Shown here piece after piece: positions 34,141 through 41,602 of a DNA stretch of 64,000 nt; within the stretch, counting starts at the first letter, position 1, and every line of letters begins with the position of its first letter. Origin of the DNA: Bacteroidota bacterium. Its GTDB lineage: Bacteria; Bacteroidota; Bacteroidia; Flavobacteriales_F; PHOS-HE28. The DNA lies in the NCBI GenBank assembly GCA_014584605.1, contig JACTMO010000059.1:1-64000 (forward strand), given 5' to 3'. The notes below the pieces were generated by a model that had not been told where the DNA came from, did no database searches, and saw only the letters and a program-made list of their open reading frames with translations. The position numbers and the translations under genes are program-made.

Positions 34141-36903
34141 ATGACCCTGAAGCTCTTCCATCCGATCGCCGCCGCCGCCCTGGCAGGCACCCTGGCCTTC
34201 CATGGGCATGCCCAGGTGGTGCTCAACGAGGTGAGCGCCAGCAACCTTAACACCTTCGCCGACAACAACGGGGAGTACGAGGACTGGGTGGAGCTGTTCA
34301 ACACCAGTGCCGTACCGGTGGACATCAGCGGCTGGCACCTCAGCGACAAGCAGAGCAACCCCACCAAGTGGGCATTCCCGGCGGGAACGCAGGTGCCGGC
34401 GAACGGGCGTCTCATGGTCTTCTGCTCGGGGCGCGACATGTTCACCCTGCCGCTGATCTTCCACACCAACTTCAAGCTGAGCCAGGGCCAGAACGAGTGG
34501 ATCCTGCTCTCCGATGCCGGCGGCAACGTGCTGGACGACTTCCAGCTCTCGGAACGGGCCAAGGAGAACCACAGCCGCGGCCGCAGCACCGACGGGGCCG
34601 CCACCTGGTCGCTGTTCCTGACCCCCACGCCCAACGCCGCCAACGCCGGGGCTTCCCCCGATTACGAGGCCAGGCCCCAGTTCAGCGTCCCCGCCGGAGT
34701 GTACGCCGGAGCCCAGAGCGTGGCCCTCAGTTCCCCGAACGGAGCCACCATCCGCTACACCCTGGACGGCAGCGCGCCCACGGCCACGAGCGCCGCCTAC
34801 AGCGCCCCTTTGAACATCGCCACCACCACCGTGGTGCGTGCCGCCTGTTTCAGCGCCACCCCGGGCGTGCCGCCCAGCTTCATCGAGACCAACACCTATT
34901 TCATCGGCGTGAGCCACACCGTGGCCATCCTCAGCCTGGCCGGGGACGAGGTGGACGACCTGCTGCTGGGCAACGGCGGCCTTGAACCCGTGTCGTCGCT
35001 GGAGTACTTCGGCCCCAACGGCGTGCTGCGCGACGAGGTGGTGGGCACCTGCGATGAGCACGGACAGGACAGCTGGGCCTACGACCAGCGCGGCTTCGAC
35101 TGGGTGACCCGCGACCAGTTCGGCTACAGCGACGCCATCCACTACCCGGTGTTCCGCACCAAGACCCGCGACAGCTACCAACGTCTGATCATCAAGGCCG
35201 CCGCGGGCGACAACTACGAGTTCGGCCCCGGGCAGCCGGCCCACATCCGGGACCCTTATGTGCAGGCCCTTAGCCAGATGGGCGGCCTGCGCGTGGACGA
35301 GCGCAGCTACGAACCCTGCGTGGTGTACGCCAACGGTCAGTACTGGGGGGTGTACGACATGCGGGAGAAGGTCGATGACCACGACTTCATCGGCTACTAC
35401 TACGACCAGGACGAGTACGACATCCAGTTCATCAAGACCTGGGGCGGTACCTGGAGCGAGTATGGCGGGGCCCAGGCCCAGAACGATTGGGATGCCCTGC
35501 GCACCTTCATCGCCACCAACAACATGGGCGACCCCGCGGCCTTCGCCTATGTGGACAGCGTGTACAACTGGAAGAGCCTGGTGGACTATTTCTGCCTGAA
35601 CAGCTATACGGTGTGCGCCGACTGGCTGAACTGGAACACCGGCTGGTGGCGCGGCCTGGACCCCAACGGCGACCACAAGAAGTGGGGGTACATCCTGTGG
35701 GACATGGACGCCACCTTCGGGCACTACACCAACTTCACGGGCATCCCCGACCAGAGCCCCGACGCCGATCCCTGCACCGTGGAGGACCTGCCCGACCCCG
35801 GAGGCCAGGGCCACACCGAGATCATCGAGAAGCTGATCCAGGAGAACACCATGGTGCACGACTACTACGTGAACCGCTACATCGACCTGGGCAACACCGT
35901 CTTCAGCTGCAACAACATGGTGCCCTTCCTGGACAGCCTGGTGGGCCTGATCGCCCCCGAGATGCCCGGGCAGGTGGCCCGCTGGGGCGGAAGCGTGGCC
36001 GACTGGCAGGCCAACGTGCAGGTGATGCGTGACTTCATCGAGACCCGTTGCGTCACCATCCAGGACGGACTGATCGACTGCTACGAGCTGTCCGGGCCCT
36101 TCGACGTCACCTTCGACGTGAACCCGCCCCTGAGCGGCACCGTGCGCGTCAACTCCCAGGTGCTGCCCTCGTATCCCTTCACCGGCACCTATTACGGCGG
36201 CATCACCACCACCCTGGCGCCCATCCCGGAGCCCGGCTGGGTGTTCAGCCACTGGACCATCCAGAACGACACCATCTGGCCCAGCCTCACGGACAGCCTG
36301 GTGACGCTCACCATCGACACCACGGACCACATCGTAGCGCACTTCATCCCGCCCATCAAACACCAGGTGCTGCTGGACGTGGACCCGGACCACAGCGGCC
36401 GCATCGTGTTCGACGGTGTGGTGTACGATGTCCTCCCCACCGTGGTGCAGGTGCCCGAGGGCGTGGCCCTGCCCATCAAGGTGCTGCCGGCCCAATACCA
36501 CGACTTCAAGTATTGGAGCATCCGGAACAACGAGCTCAGTCCGGCGGACAGCTCCCTGCAGGAGCTCAGCATCACCTTCTTCGGGCCGGACACCGTGGTG
36601 GCCCACCTGGAGCCCCAGGAATACGCCTACTGGATCCCCAACTCGTTCACGCCCAACAACGACGGCATCAACGATGTGTGGCAGCCGTGGGGCAACGTGA
36701 TCGACCTGGAGTCCTTCGACCTGCGGATCTACGACCGCTGGGGACAGCTGTTGTTCCAGAGCGAGGACCCCAACCTGCCCTGGGACGGGACCAACGGCGC
36801 AGGACCCGTGGGTGCCGGGGTGTACGCCTATCGCGCCTACGTGATCGAGGGCGTCACCAAGGAAAGGCACGAGATCTTCGGGCACGTGACCGTGGTGCGC
36901 TGA
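34141..36903 (+). CDS. CotH-kinase-like secreted protein with LTD and T9SS type B domains
   Basis: A 920-residue surface protein. Domains in order: signal peptide (to about 24); lamin-tail domain (VVLNEVSASNLNTFADNNG, about 25-135); chitobiase C-terminal-like module (TIRYTLDGSAPTATSAAYS, about 180-245); CotH kinase-like domain (about 330-640) with the DxDxxFG signature as DMDATFG at 521-527; two beta modules with SHWTIQNDT/YWSIRNN text; and a type B gliding-motility C-terminus, NSFTPNNDGINDVW (about 834) to the end. CotH proteins are atypical secreted kinases in spore-formers and fungi; in Bacteroidota the role is unclear. It follows a strong terminator. Confidence 0.9.
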   Translation: MTLKLFHPIAAAALAGTLAFHGHAQVVLNEVSASNLNTFADNNGEYEDWVELFNTSAVPVDISGWHLSDKQSNPTKWAFPAGTQVPANGRLMVFCSGRDMFTLPLIFHTNFKLSQGQNEWILLSDAGGNVLDDFQLSERAKENHSRGRSTDGAATWSLFLTPTPNAANAGASPDYEARPQFSVPAGVYAGAQSVALSSPNGATIRYTLDGSAPTATSAAYSAPLNIATTTVVRAACFSATPGVPPSFIETNTYFIGVSHTVAILSLAGDEVDDLLLGNGGLEPVSSLEYFGPNGVLRDEVVGTCDEHGQDSWAYDQRGFDWVTRDQFGYSDAIHYPVFRTKTRDSYQRLIIKAAAGDNYEFGPGQPAHIRDPYVQALSQMGGLRVDERSYEPCVVYANGQYWGVYDMREKVDDHDFIGYYYDQDEYDIQFIKTWGGTWSEYGGAQAQNDWDALRTFIATNNMGDPAAFAYVDSVYNWKSLVDYFCLNSYTVCADWLNWNTGWWRGLDPNGDHKKWGYILWDMDATFGHYTNFTGIPDQSPDADPCTVEDLPDPGGQGHTEIIEKLIQENTMVHDYYVNRYIDLGNTVFSCNNMVPFLDSLVGLIAPEMPGQVARWGGSVADWQANVQVMRDFIETRCVTIQDGLIDCYELSGPFDVTFDVNPPLSGTVRVNSQVLPSYPFTGTYYGGITTTLAPIPEPGWVFSHWTIQNDTIWPSLTDSLVTLTIDTTDHIVAHFIPPIKHQVLLDVDPDHSGRIVFDGVVYDVLPTVVQVPEGVALPIKVLPAQYHDFKYWSIRNNELSPADSSLQELSITFFGPDTVVAHLEPQEYAYWIPNSFTPNNDGINDVWQPWGNVIDLESFDLRIYDRWGQLLFQSEDPNLPWDGTNGAGPVGAGVYAYRAYVIEGVTKERHEIFGHVTVVR

Positions 36904-37028
36904 GGCGGCCACCGTTGCTTGTTCCCCGGCCGCACCTGCACAGGTCCCGGTCCTTCCGATCCGATCTCCGGCGTTGGACGAACGGGGATATCATGCATCT
37001 TCGTGTTCGCACGATAGACCCCAGCCCC

Positions 37029-39437
37029 ATGCGAACAAGTACGACCCTCTTGGTGACCATTCTCCTGTCCGCGACCCCGGCCCTGGCCCAGCAGGCCCGG
37101 CTGTAGGTGGTGCACAACAGCGCGGACTCCGCGCTGACCGCAGTGGACCTGTACATGAACGACAGCCTGCTGATCGACGACCTCGGTTTCCGCACGGCCT
37201 GGGGCTATCACGATGTGCCCGCCGGCACCGACCTGCGGATCGGCATCGCACCGGACAGCAGCAGCAGCGTGGCCGATACCATCCCCGGCCTGTCCACCAC
37301 CATCAACCTGACCGACAGCGGCACCTACCTGTTGGTGGCCCAGGGCATCGTCAGCGCCATGGGCTACAACCCTGCACCGCCCTTCAACCTTGTACTTACC
37401 GCCGGGCAGGAAGTGGACACGCTGGGACAGCTGGGGTTCGTCCTGCAGCATGGCGCCACGGACGCACCGGCCCTGGATGTGTTCGAGCGCGCCGTGCTGG
37501 ATGCCGGTATCCTCAACGGTCTGGGCTATGGGCAGAGCGCTGCTGCACTGTCCCTGCCCGCGACCGACCTGGTGCTGGAACTGCATGCCGCAGGTGACCC
37601 CGACCCCTGGTCGTCCTACAGCCTGCCGGCGCAGAACCTTGCGGGGCAGGGTGTGACGGTGTTCGCGAGCGGCTTCACGGACCCCGCGCAGAACAGCAAT
37701 GGCCCGGCCTTCGGCCTGTGGATGGCGCTGCCCGCAGGCGGCCCGCTGGTGGAACTGCTGCCCTGGGAGGCTCCCACGGCGTGGCTGCAGGTGGTCCACG
37801 CCATTGCCGACACCGCGCTGGACGTGGTGGACATCTACCTGAACGACGGCCTGCTGGCCGATGACCTGGCCTTCCGCAACGCCACCGCCTTTGTCGAAGT
37901 GCCCGCCGGGGTGGTGGGGCACCTGGCCGTCGCACCGGGTACGAGCACCGGCGCGGCCGACAGCATCCCCGGGCTGAGCGTGGTGCTTCAACCGGACACC
38001 GACGACCTCCAGGTGCTGGTGGCCACCGGCATCGTCAGCGCAACGGGGTACAACCCCGCACCGCCTTTCGCCTTCAGCAGTTTCGACCCGGCCCGTGAGG
38101 CCGCCCTCACCGCAGGGCACACCGACGTGCTGTGGATGAACGCCTGCACGGACCTTCCGCAACTGGACCTGCGGGAAACAAGGACCTTGGATTCGCTGTT
38201 GGTGAACGATCTGTCCTATACCGACTTCGCGGACTATCTGGAGCTGTCCGCAGACAGTTTCACCGTGCAGGTGCGCACGCCGGACAACAGCGCGGTGGTG
38301 GGGGCTTATCAGCTGATCCCTGCGGCCCTGGGTCTGGTCGACAGCGCGATCACCGTGGTGGCATGCGGTTTCCGCGAGCCGGCACAGAACAGCAACGGTG
38401 CGGCGTTCGGTCTTTGGGCGGCGCTGCCCACGGGCGGCCCCCTGGTGGAGCTGCCTGCCGCGCCGGTGCCCATGGCACGCGTGCAGATCATCCACAACAG
38501 CGCCGATGCCGCCCTGGCCACGGTGGACCTCTGGAAGAACGACATCATGCTGGCCGACGACCTGCCCTTCCGCCAGGCCACGCCCTTCGAGTACGTGCAG
38601 GCCGACGTGGACATTGACCTGGGCGTGGCCCCGGCCAACAGCACCAGTGCCGCCGATGCCTTCTTCAACGCGGCGATGCGCTTCGAGGAGGGCAGCGCCC
38701 ATGTGCTGATGGCCGCCGGTATCGAGAGCTCCACGGGCTATGATCCCGCCGTGCCCTTCGGTCTGCATCACCATGCCAACGCCCGCGAAACGGCCACCTC
38801 CGGTGCGGACAACACGGACATCCTGATGGCGCATGGCGGCACGGACGTGCCGACCGTGAACATCAACGAGGTCCTGGCCTTCGGCGGTGTCACCCTGGTC
38901 TCGGGCCTGGGCTATGGCGACTTCATCGGCTACCTCGAACCGCCCACGGCCGGCTATGCCCTGGATGTCGTGGCCCCCGGTGGCCTCCTGGGCAGCTTCC
39001 AGGCGCCCCTGGCCACCATGGGCTGGCAGGGTGAAGCGATCACCGTGGCGGTGAGCGGCTTTGCGGACCCGGCGCAGAACAGCAACGGCCCGGCCTTCGG
39101 CCTGTGGGTGGCCGATGGCGACGGAGGTCCGATGGTGGAGCTGCCGGTGTACACCGGGCTGCACGAGAACGCGGGACCGCTCGTCGGCACCGTGGTCTGG
39201 CCCAACCCCGCTGCGGAACGCCTGAACGTCCGCGTTCCCGGCCTGGGCCATCGCACCCTGCAGGTGGACCTGCTGGACGCCGCGGGCCGCGTGTTGCGGA
39301 GCTGGGGCGATGGCGACCTGGCCCGACACGACGACCAGTTGATGCTGAGCACCGCCGGCCTGTCCACCGGCACCTACGTGCTTCGCCTGCGCAGCGACGC
39401 CCACAGCGTGGCCCTGCCCGTTGCCGTGTTGCGTTGA
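37029..39437 (+). pseudogene. DUF4397-repeat T9SS protein interrupted by in-frame TAG
   Basis: The ATG at 37029 opens a clear signal peptide (MRTSTTLLVTILLSATPALA), but codon 26 is TAG (37104-37106). The frame then stays open to 39437 and encodes about 776 residues with three DUF4397-type units (VVHNSADSALTAVDLYMND, LQVVHAIADTALDVVDIYL, VQIIHNSADAALATVDLWK) alternating with three copies of a second module. That module ends GFxDPAQNSNGxAFGLW. A type A sorting tail (VVWPNPAAERLN to the end) closes it. At the TAG position the second unit has Gln (CAG), so a single C-to-T change explains the break. A GTG at 37107 would restart translation but without an export signal. It could be a real nonsense allele, a read-through site or a sequencing error. 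Confidence 0.85.
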
Positions 39438-39506
39438 GCCCCCCGCCGTGCCCGGTGGGACCTGCCCTGCCGGTGCTTCCGGGCACGGCAGGAACGGTAA
39501 CGAGTC

Positions 39507-39514
39507 CACCTTTG
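39507..39514 (+). promoter_or_regulatory. -7-like box CACCTTTG
   Basis: CACCTTTG ends 4 nt before GTG 39519; it is one base off TAnnTTTG. Confidence 0.45.
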
Positions 39515-39518
39515 CAGG

Positions 39519-40205
39519 GTGAGCGCCCAACCACCCGGTACCCTGCTCGTCCTGCTGGCGCTGGCCCTGGTGGCCTGCGACAAGGCGCAGCCTTCCGCAT
39601 CCGGAGGACCGGCCCCAAGGCGTGCTGACGTGCGCGCGACGGTGCCGTACGTGGACGGTACCAAGCATGGGGAGGCCCTTGTGCTGGACGAGCGTGGCCG
39701 TGTGCGGAAGTCGGGGCGGTACGACCACGATCGGAAGACCGGGACATGGACCGGCTTCGACGGGGACGGAGACACCCTGGAAGTGGTGCACTACGCGAAC
39801 GGGCTGCTCGATGGCGAAAGCCGGATGTACGGCCCGGGCGGAGTGCTGCTCAAGAAGATCACCTATCGGCGCGGGCGGATGCACGGGGCCTACGAGGACC
39901 ACCATCCGGACGGCGCGCTGTACGAAAGGGTCTCCTACCGCGACGGCCAGCGCCACGGCCCCTACCTGCGCTTCACGCGGAAGGACACGCTGGACAACGG
40001 GCCGCGCCTGGAAGGGCAATACAGCAAGGGTTCGCGTACCGGCATCTGGCGGCGTTACTACGGCAATGGTGTACAGAGCGAGGAAGGCCCGATCGTGGAC
40101 GACCGGTTCCATGGACGATGGACCTACTGGGACCGCCGGGGCCGACCGCGGTTGGAGCGTGTCTACGTGCGGGGCGCGCTCGTGTACGAGGGCCCGCCGC
40201 GCTAA
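39519..40205 (+). CDS. MORN-repeat lipoprotein
   Basis: A 228-residue predicted lipoprotein with lipobox LVAC (Cys20). From about residue 48 it contains MORN-like repeats: GTKHGEALVLDERGRVRKSG, RKTGTWTGFDGDGD, GLLDGESRMYGPGG, GRMHGAYEDHHPDG, GQRHGPYLRF, SRTGIWRRYYGNG and RFHGRWTYWDRRG. Such YwqK-like repeat proteins are frequent in Bacteroidota envelopes; the role is unknown. The GTG start is set by the box 4 nt upstream. Its stop overlaps the stop of the convergent GlcD-like gene by 3 bp. Confidence 0.85.
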   Translation: MSAQPPGTLLVLLALALVACDKAQPSASGGPAPRRADVRATVPYVDGTKHGEALVLDERGRVRKSGRYDHDRKTGTWTGFDGDGDTLEVVHYANGLLDGESRMYGPGGVLLKKITYRRGRMHGAYEDHHPDGALYERVSYRDGQRHGPYLRFTRKDTLDNGPRLEGQYSKGSRTGIWRRYYGNGVQSEEGPIVDDRFHGRWTYWDRRGRPRLERVYVRGALVYEGPPR

Positions 40206-41602
40206 GGCAGCACCTTGCCCGGGTTCAGGATGCCCTTGGGATCGAACAGGCGCTTGAGCCCGCGCATCAGTTCGAGCTGGGCCGTGTTGAAGACGATGTC
40301 CATGTAAGGACGCTGCACCAGCCCGATGCCGTGCTCGCCGCTGAGCGTGCCGCCCAGCGAAACCGTCAGCTCGAAGATCTCGCGCACGGCCTTGGGCAGT
40401 TCCTGTTCCCAGAAGGTCTCGTCGAGCTCGCCCCGGATGATGTTGACGTGGAGGTTGCCGTCGCCGGCATGGCCATAGCACACGCTCTGGAACCCGTACC
40501 GGGCCCCGATGGCCTTGACACCGGCCAGCAGACGGGGCAGGGCGAAGCGCGGCACCACGGTATCCTCCTCCTTGTACACGCTGTGCGCCTTCACGCTCAC
40601 CGGAACACTGCGGCGCAGGTGCCACAGGGCCGCCTTCTCCGAGGGGCTCTCGGCGAAGAGCACCTCTCCACCTCCGTGCGCTTCCATCACCCCCAGGATG
40701 GTCTCGCAATCGCGCATCAACGCCTCGCCGTGGTCGCCGTCCACCTCGATCAGCAGGTAGGCGCCGGGTTGTGTGGAAAGCTGGCGCGGGAGCCCTTCGG
40801 TGAAACGCATGGTCCAGGCGATGGCGTCGCGCTCCATGAACTCGAGCGCGCTGGGGGTCACGCCGGCGCGGAACGTGGCGCTCACCGCCGTGCACGCGTC
40901 CTCGGCACTGGCAAAGGGCACCAGCATCAGCCGGTTCTCGCGGGGCATGGGCACCAGTTTCAGCACCGCCCTGGTGATCACCGCCAGGGTGCCTTCGCTG
41001 CCCACGATCAGGCGGGTGAGGTCGTAGCCGGTGGCGTTCTTCAAGGTGTTGGCGCCGGTCCACAGCACCGTGCCGTCGGGCAGCACCACCTCCAGGTTGA
41101 GCACGAAGTCGCGGGTGACGCCGTACTTCACGGCGCGCGGACCGCCGGCGTTCTCGGCCAGGTTGCCGCCGATGGTGCAACTGCCGCGGCTGCTCGGATC
41201 GGGCGGATAGTACAGCCCCCTGGCCGCCACCGCCTCCTGCAGCACCTGGGTGATCACGCCCGGCTCCACCGTCACCTGCAGGTTGCCTTCGTCGATCTCC
41301 ACGATGTGGTCCATGCGGTCCAGGGCCAGGCCCACGCCGCCGTGAATGCACAGGGCGCCACCGCTAAGCCCGGTCCGCCCGCCAATGGGGGTCACGGGCA
41401 CTTCGAGCGCGTGGCAGGTGCGCAGCACGGCCGCCACCTCGGCCGTGGTCCGCGGGCGCACGAGCACCTCCGGCGGATGGACCAGGTCCTCGGTCTCATC
41501 GTGCCCGTAAGCCTTCAGCAGGTCCTCGTCCACCTGGACGATCTCCGCAGAGAGCACCTTCCGGAGCGCTTCGACAACGGCCTTGGTCCCATCGGATCGC
41601 AT
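40202..41602 (-). CDS. FAD-linked D-2-hydroxyacid dehydrogenase (GlcD/D-lactate type)
   Basis: A 466-residue flavoprotein of the GlcD / D-lactate dehydrogenase (cytochrome-type) family. The N-terminal FAD_binding_4 domain (about 35-215) shows PIGGRTGLSGGA and the diphosphate-binding SSRGSCTIGGNLAENAGG; the C-terminal FAD-oxidase_C domain contains CYGHAGDGNLHVNI with the metal/substrate histidines and SGEHGIGLVQR. It oxidises D-lactate, glycolate or a similar 2-hydroxyacid. There is no Fe-S partner gene nearby, so it may work alone. A possible box ATCTTTCG ends 4 nt before the ATG at 41602. Confidence 0.93.
   Translation of the reverse strand: MRSDGTKAVVEALRKVLSAEIVQVDEDLLKAYGHDETEDLVHPPEVLVRPRTTAEVAAVLRTCHALEVPVTPIGGRTGLSGGALCIHGGVGLALDRMDHIVEIDEGNLQVTVEPGVITQVLQEAVAARGLYYPPDPSSRGSCTIGGNLAENAGGPRAVKYGVTRDFVLNLEVVLPDGTVLWTGANTLKNATGYDLTRLIVGSEGTLAVITRAVLKLVPMPRENRLMLVPFASAEDACTAVSATFRAGVTPSALEFMERDAIAWTMRFTEGLPRQLSTQPGAYLLIEVDGDHGEALMRDCETILGVMEAHGGGEVLFAESPSEKAALWHLRRSVPVSVKAHSVYKEEDTVVPRFALPRLLAGVKAIGARYGFQSVCYGHAGDGNLHVNIIRGELDETFWEQELPKAVREIFELTVSLGGTLSGEHGIGLVQRPYMDIVFNTAQLELMRGLKRLFDPKGILNPGKVLP

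Follow-up and report, generated by a model that had tools for sequence, protein, structure and literature searches.

Why should a gene that is otherwise conserved carry a stop codon exactly between its export signal and the protein to be exported? The question is raised by a locus in a 64,000-nucleotide stretch of DNA from a Bacteroidota bacterium (here the window: GCA_014584605.1, contig JACTMO010000059.1, positions 1 to 64,000). A first-pass annotation of the letters had read the locus as a T9SS-DUF4397 protein interrupted by TAG, and had offered four options: a fresh nonsense mutation, an on/off allele, amber read-through or a base-call error. We compared the window's genome (G000, a draft of 89 contigs) with related genomes, one per species; the closest relative compared was G024 (contig JABWBQ010000033.1, locus L037, 45.8 kb).

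An in-frame TAG separates the leader from its cargo

Re-translation reproduced the frame as first described, both in its coordinates and in its content (ATG 37029, a 25-codon leader, TAG, then about 776 codons). The reading frame opens at ATG 37029, and codons 1-25 read MRTSTTLLVTILLSATPALAQQARL in the translation of the window; codon 26 is TAG (37104-37106), in frame with that ATG; 776 open codons follow, closed by TGA at 39435-39437. GTG 37107, which had been named as the start that an automatic caller would choose, is the first ATG, GTG or TTG downstream of the TAG. The signal peptide was called by eye and by alignment. The parts of the gene are as follows.

37029..37103, + strand: signal peptide and first mature residues, 25 codons, MRTSTTLLVTILLSATPALA-QQARL (translation; leaders of relatives compared)
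37104..37106, + strand: in-frame TAG, codon 26 (the syntenic orthologue has CAG, and every other repeat has Gln or Glu)
37107..39437, + strand: rest of the open frame, 776 codons and TGA, with DUF4397 repeats and C-terminal sorting domain (frame scan, profile matches)
37095..37481, + strand: DUF4397 repeat 1, which contains the TAG (profile match 1-118 with one TAG inside)
37779..38168, + strand: DUF4397 repeat 2, CAG at 37788 in WLQVVH (profile match, repeat-start alignment)
38460..38777, + strand: DUF4397 repeat 3, CAG at 38484 in RVQIIH (profile match, repeat-start alignment)
39195..39407, + strand: T9SS type A C-terminal sorting domain, just below curated cut-offs (profile matches)

The DUF4397 half of the original description stood, with 98.6 bits in the body of the protein (Pfam, two stretches). 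The sorting domain was also found, yet it scores slightly below the curated cut-off of each profile (Pfam, 25.9 vs 27; TIGR04183, 20.7 vs 23). The genome encodes the T9SS translocon protein SprA (2565 bits), which was the component searched for, and the window gene is its only DUF4397 gene. With a signal peptide, a repeat body, a putative C-terminal sorting domain and SprA in the genome, the gene resembles the T9SS type A cargo proteins of Bacteroidota; it differs in having a stop between signal peptide and cargo. In the relatives leader and cargo are in frame, whereas in the window gene the TAG cuts one off from the other.

The stop is most likely a derived change

The gene has a syntenic orthologue in G024, and the neighbours that anchor the comparison are:

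34141..36903, + strand: conserved upstream neighbour gene, synteny anchor (comparison with relatives)
39519..40205, + strand: MORN-repeat lipoprotein-like gene, the next conserved neighbour, which follows the MerR gene in G008 (gene order, domain search)
40205..41602, - strand: conserved convergent neighbour gene, synteny anchor (comparison with relatives)

The orthologue has 802 codons, the same length, is 80% identical with no indels, and reads CAG at the stop site. Because both sides of the TAG align to a syntenic gene of identical length that has CAG there, the TAG-split frame is not a product of chance. Across 69 homologous repeat starts from the window's genome and its relatives, Gln stands in 66 (CAG in 42, CAA in 24), Glu in two and a stop in one, the window gene. 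An equivalent CAG in an internal repeat, pointed out in the first-pass annotation, was found at 37788 and again at 38484. Among the matches listed, TAG occurred only in the window copy, both for the DUF4397 family in 45 congeners and for the N-terminal part in 58 relatives; neither these comparisons nor that of the repeat starts found the stop conserved in a second species. The comparison with related genomes that had been proposed thus agrees with a single C-to-T change in a Gln codon, and the TAG at codon 26 is most likely derived, CAG to TAG.

The main rival is that the population carries CAG, and that the TAG is either an error of base calling or assembly consensus or an allele of a minor strain captured in the consensus. 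A frame that is otherwise perfect and constrained would suit such an error, as would the draft state of the assembly (89 contigs), which is known here through its consensus. However, of the window genes whose orthologues lie on the 45.8-kb contig of G024, the DUF4397 gene alone has an internal stop (the other stops in this comparison fell in antisense shadow frames), and substitution errors that create a stop are rare relative to real nonsense alleles. We therefore regard an error as unlikely, although likelier than any other alternative, and prefer a real nonsense mutation.

The genome uses the standard code

The window's genome uses the standard genetic code. RF1 (prfA) is present (profile score 480 bits vs a cut-off of 423), no CUA anticodon occurs among the 41 tRNA genes that passed the cut-off, and in a 382-kb sample of the genome 27 of the 226 frames that show coding signal stop at TAG; several conserved genes of the window also terminate in TAG. 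Apart from the DUF4397 gene, no TAG-split gene was found in the 382 kb. Two candidates proved, as judged from their translations, to be ordinary gene junctions: one between the end of a histidine kinase gene and a LytTR-type regulator, the other between panD and a membrane protein gene downstream of it. The searches suggested at the outset, for other TAG-interrupted genes and for a suppressor tRNA, thus returned neither, and we rejected UAG reassignment or suppression: with RF1 present, no UAG-reading tRNA among the 41, TAG a normal terminator and no second split gene, the evidence is against amber read-through at the level of the code.

The gene was probably under selection until recently

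Between the window gene and its G024 orthologue, dS is 0.44 and dN/dS 0.29, equal across all thirds of the gene. Amino-acid changes, polarised with three more distant homologues as outgroups, numbered 42 on the window gene's own branch and 38 on that of G024. Had the whole own branch been neutral, about nine further stops would be expected; none was observed. Since dN/dS is 0.29 and change on the own branch is no faster, the gene would have been useful long after the split from G024 and after the loss of its regulator (see below), and the stop would therefore be late, or a little protein would still be made. As a rough limit, taking half of dS per branch and outgroups that are 58% identical, the stop can be no older than roughly the final 0.27-0.32 of the own branch. 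The same pattern of constraint also fits a protein that may still be made at a low level.

This second possibility corresponds to a tolerated in-frame stop as understood by Belinky et al. 2021 (PMC7918605), at which low-level read-through by a near-cognate tRNA would still supply some surface protein. In-frame stops in prokaryotic genes are described there as widespread and short-lived, and those in genes with dN/dS below 1, also reported as widespread, include a CAG/TAG example in Paenibacillus (PMC7918605). The window gene is alike in its CAG to TAG change and in its dN/dS below 1 (0.29, with no acceleration), but differs in that its stop is confined to one species and its read-through is hypothetical. 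Conservation in a second species, which this stop shows in none, is that paper's own filter against artefacts; moreover, there is no UAG-reading tRNA among the 41 genes, RF1 is present, and a recent stop would give the same dN/dS. We consider read-through of this kind improbable, slightly more so than an error.

Re-initiation at GTG 37107, yielding a DUF4397 protein that lacks a leader, stays in the cytoplasm and has its own function, is geometrically possible, as the GTG immediately follows the TAG. We think it very improbable: the same GTG is a plain Val codon after CAG in the orthologue, the start lies within the conserved beginning of a repeat, and the product would retain the T9SS sorting domain while lacking any export signal. 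Least probable of all is a reversible on/off allele, whether by phase variation or by gene conversion with an internal repeat as donor, since, despite three homologous repeats of which two have CAG, the site is a plain substitution with no repeat tract and no close donor copy (identity to the other repeats around it extends over only 5+7 and 2+2 bases). Of the four options first listed, the nonsense mutation is thus preferred; the on/off allele and read-through at the code level have the evidence against them, and an error keeps its small share.

Two further checks gave nothing. A methylation hotspot, CTGCAG to CTGTAG, was considered through site counts only; these lent it no support, the window containing 51 CTGCAG sites against 49 expected, without depletion. 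Viral contigs searched with sequence carrying either base gave no match.

Relatives pair the DUF4397 gene with a CarH-like regulator and a palindrome

In most congeners a MerR gene lies directly 3' of DUF4397. A domain search of this neighbouring protein found MerR_1 and then B12-binding_2 domains, and it matches the CarH structures 3whp and 5c8d (E ~1e-18). The order in G008 is upstream neighbour, DUF4397, CarH-like gene, MORN lipoprotein, convergent neighbour; G000 and G024 have the same order minus the CarH-like gene. Such a second MerR gene was present in six of eight genomes searched, i.e. in all six congeners, and directly downstream of DUF4397 in all five that have DUF4397; in G000 and G024 it was not found, both having the other, conserved MerR gene only. 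The regions concerned in the window are:

36899..37028, + strand: upstream region without the TGTTYA-N18-TRAACA palindrome (motif scan)
36974..37003, + strand: possible promoter-like element, TTG-N19-YAnnTTYG, common to G024, a pattern match only (alignment with the closest relative)
39438..39518, no strand: interval in which congeners have the CarH/LitR-like MerR gene, absent here and in G024 (synteny, MerR search)

Upstream of DUF4397 the relatives have a palindrome, TGTTYA-N18(19)-TRAACA, 77-100 bases 5' of the start (loci L009-L036 and L137-L148). It was found with at most two mismatches at 31 of 35 DUF4397 genes, perfectly in 28, compared with 7% of shuffled upstream sequences. Eleven of the 35 loci were added as a check after the motif had been seen: among these it was exact in nine, had two mismatches in L141 and was absent from L143. 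Other families of the class have TGTTTA/TAAACA as the halves, so that both arms change together. Of 2540 tiles of 150 bases from the window's genome, two contain the palindrome with at most one mismatch.

The four genes without it are the window gene, its G024 orthologue, and a paralogue that occurs in G012 (L026) and in G067 (L143). The G012 paralogue locus (contig C166) has neither palindrome nor adjacent MerR gene and is a parallel case. Palindrome and adjacent regulator co-occur (13/0 vs 2/3 loci, Fisher p 0.012, the loci not being independent), and we infer that the palindrome may be the operator of the CarH-like regulator. Between the DUF4397 and CarH-like genes there is another perfect palindrome (L149, 5492-5522; G008 contig C3, 25991-26021), perhaps reflecting autoregulation. 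A literature search found no paper combining the palindrome halves with Bacteroidetes and promoter, and none on DUF4397 whose title and abstract bore on the question.

In congeners the carotenoid operon has the palindrome too

All six congeners tested outside the G000/G024 pair have the palindrome, with no more than one mismatch, ahead of the crtI operon (ECF sigma-crtI-crtB, or crtI itself; L192, L195, L196, L197, L198 and L199). It precedes the ECF sigma gene in G008, G010, G025 and G066, and stands directly before crtI in G023 and G013; in G013 crtI lies next to the DUF4397 gene, the two being transcribed divergently. G000 and G024 have crtI genes with no palindrome upstream and no ECF gene alongside; G013 likewise lacks an ECF gene beside crtI. 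The crtI-family matches in L195, L200 and L201 show one TGA inside, perhaps because the match overruns the gene end.

CarH/LitR proteins are B12-based light regulators of carotenogenesis, according to PMC9304148, PMC6739363 and PMC7064467. The relatives' system is like the CarH/CarA/LitR regulators of Myxococcus and Thermus in its MerR_1 and B12-binding_2 domains, its 3whp and 5c8d matches and its palindrome 5' of the crtI operon. It differs in the sequence of that palindrome, TGTTYA-N18-TRAACA, in the link to a T9SS-DUF4397 surface protein and in a response to light or B12 that is putative; from the window's genome the CarH-like gene is missing. By analogy, the relatives' regulator may sense light or B12. 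The relatives thus seem to have a single regulon made up of the CarH-like regulator with its probable operator, the surface protein (DUF4397) and the carotenoid operon.

A probable course of events

The account that we favour with fair confidence is that a recent, lone CAG to TAG nonsense mutation ends an exported T9SS-type DUF4397 protein after its leader, and that this happened late in the decay of a regulon member that had already been orphaned. The G000/G024 lineage would have lost the regulator, the DUF4397 palindrome and the crtI-operon palindrome (loss, rather than never having gained them, being the presumed direction). The DUF4397 gene would have stayed under selection, perhaps through another promoter such as the promoter-like match at 36974-37003 common to both genomes, until a single CAG to TAG change at codon 26 arose in G000. 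Translation would then terminate just past the signal peptide and release a 25-residue leader peptide. Any product restarted at GTG 37107 would have no export signal and stay cytoplasmic, so that the surface protein would be lost or nearly so; presumably no useful protein is now made. That the protein can be lost is indicated by 8 of 30 near-complete congeners, from which DUF4397 is absent altogether.

In its one-base change to a stop, its intact orthologue in a sister species and its conserved remaining frame, the gene is like other lone nonsense alleles or young pseudogenes. It differs in that the stop falls exactly between export signal and mature protein, and its lineage differs in that a linked regulator and candidate operators are missing.

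Implications

Recognising the stop as an ordinary loss-of-function change disposes of a misleading hint of stop-codon recoding in Bacteroidota. The association of DUF4397 with CarH and carotenoid synthesis is a more interesting result than an ordinary stop mutation. A wider proposal, which we hold to be evenly balanced between right and wrong, is that in this genus, and perhaps in the other palindrome-bearing families, a T9SS-secreted DUF4397 protein belongs to a CarH-type (B12/light) regulon together with the carotenoid operon, and that the window's genome records its stepwise loss, regulator and operators first and the effector later, by the stop. This would give a domain of unknown function a testable role, in that a CarH-like B12/light sensor apparently controls DUF4397 surface proteins and carotenoid synthesis together, and would offer a natural series for the study of how a regulon is dismantled.
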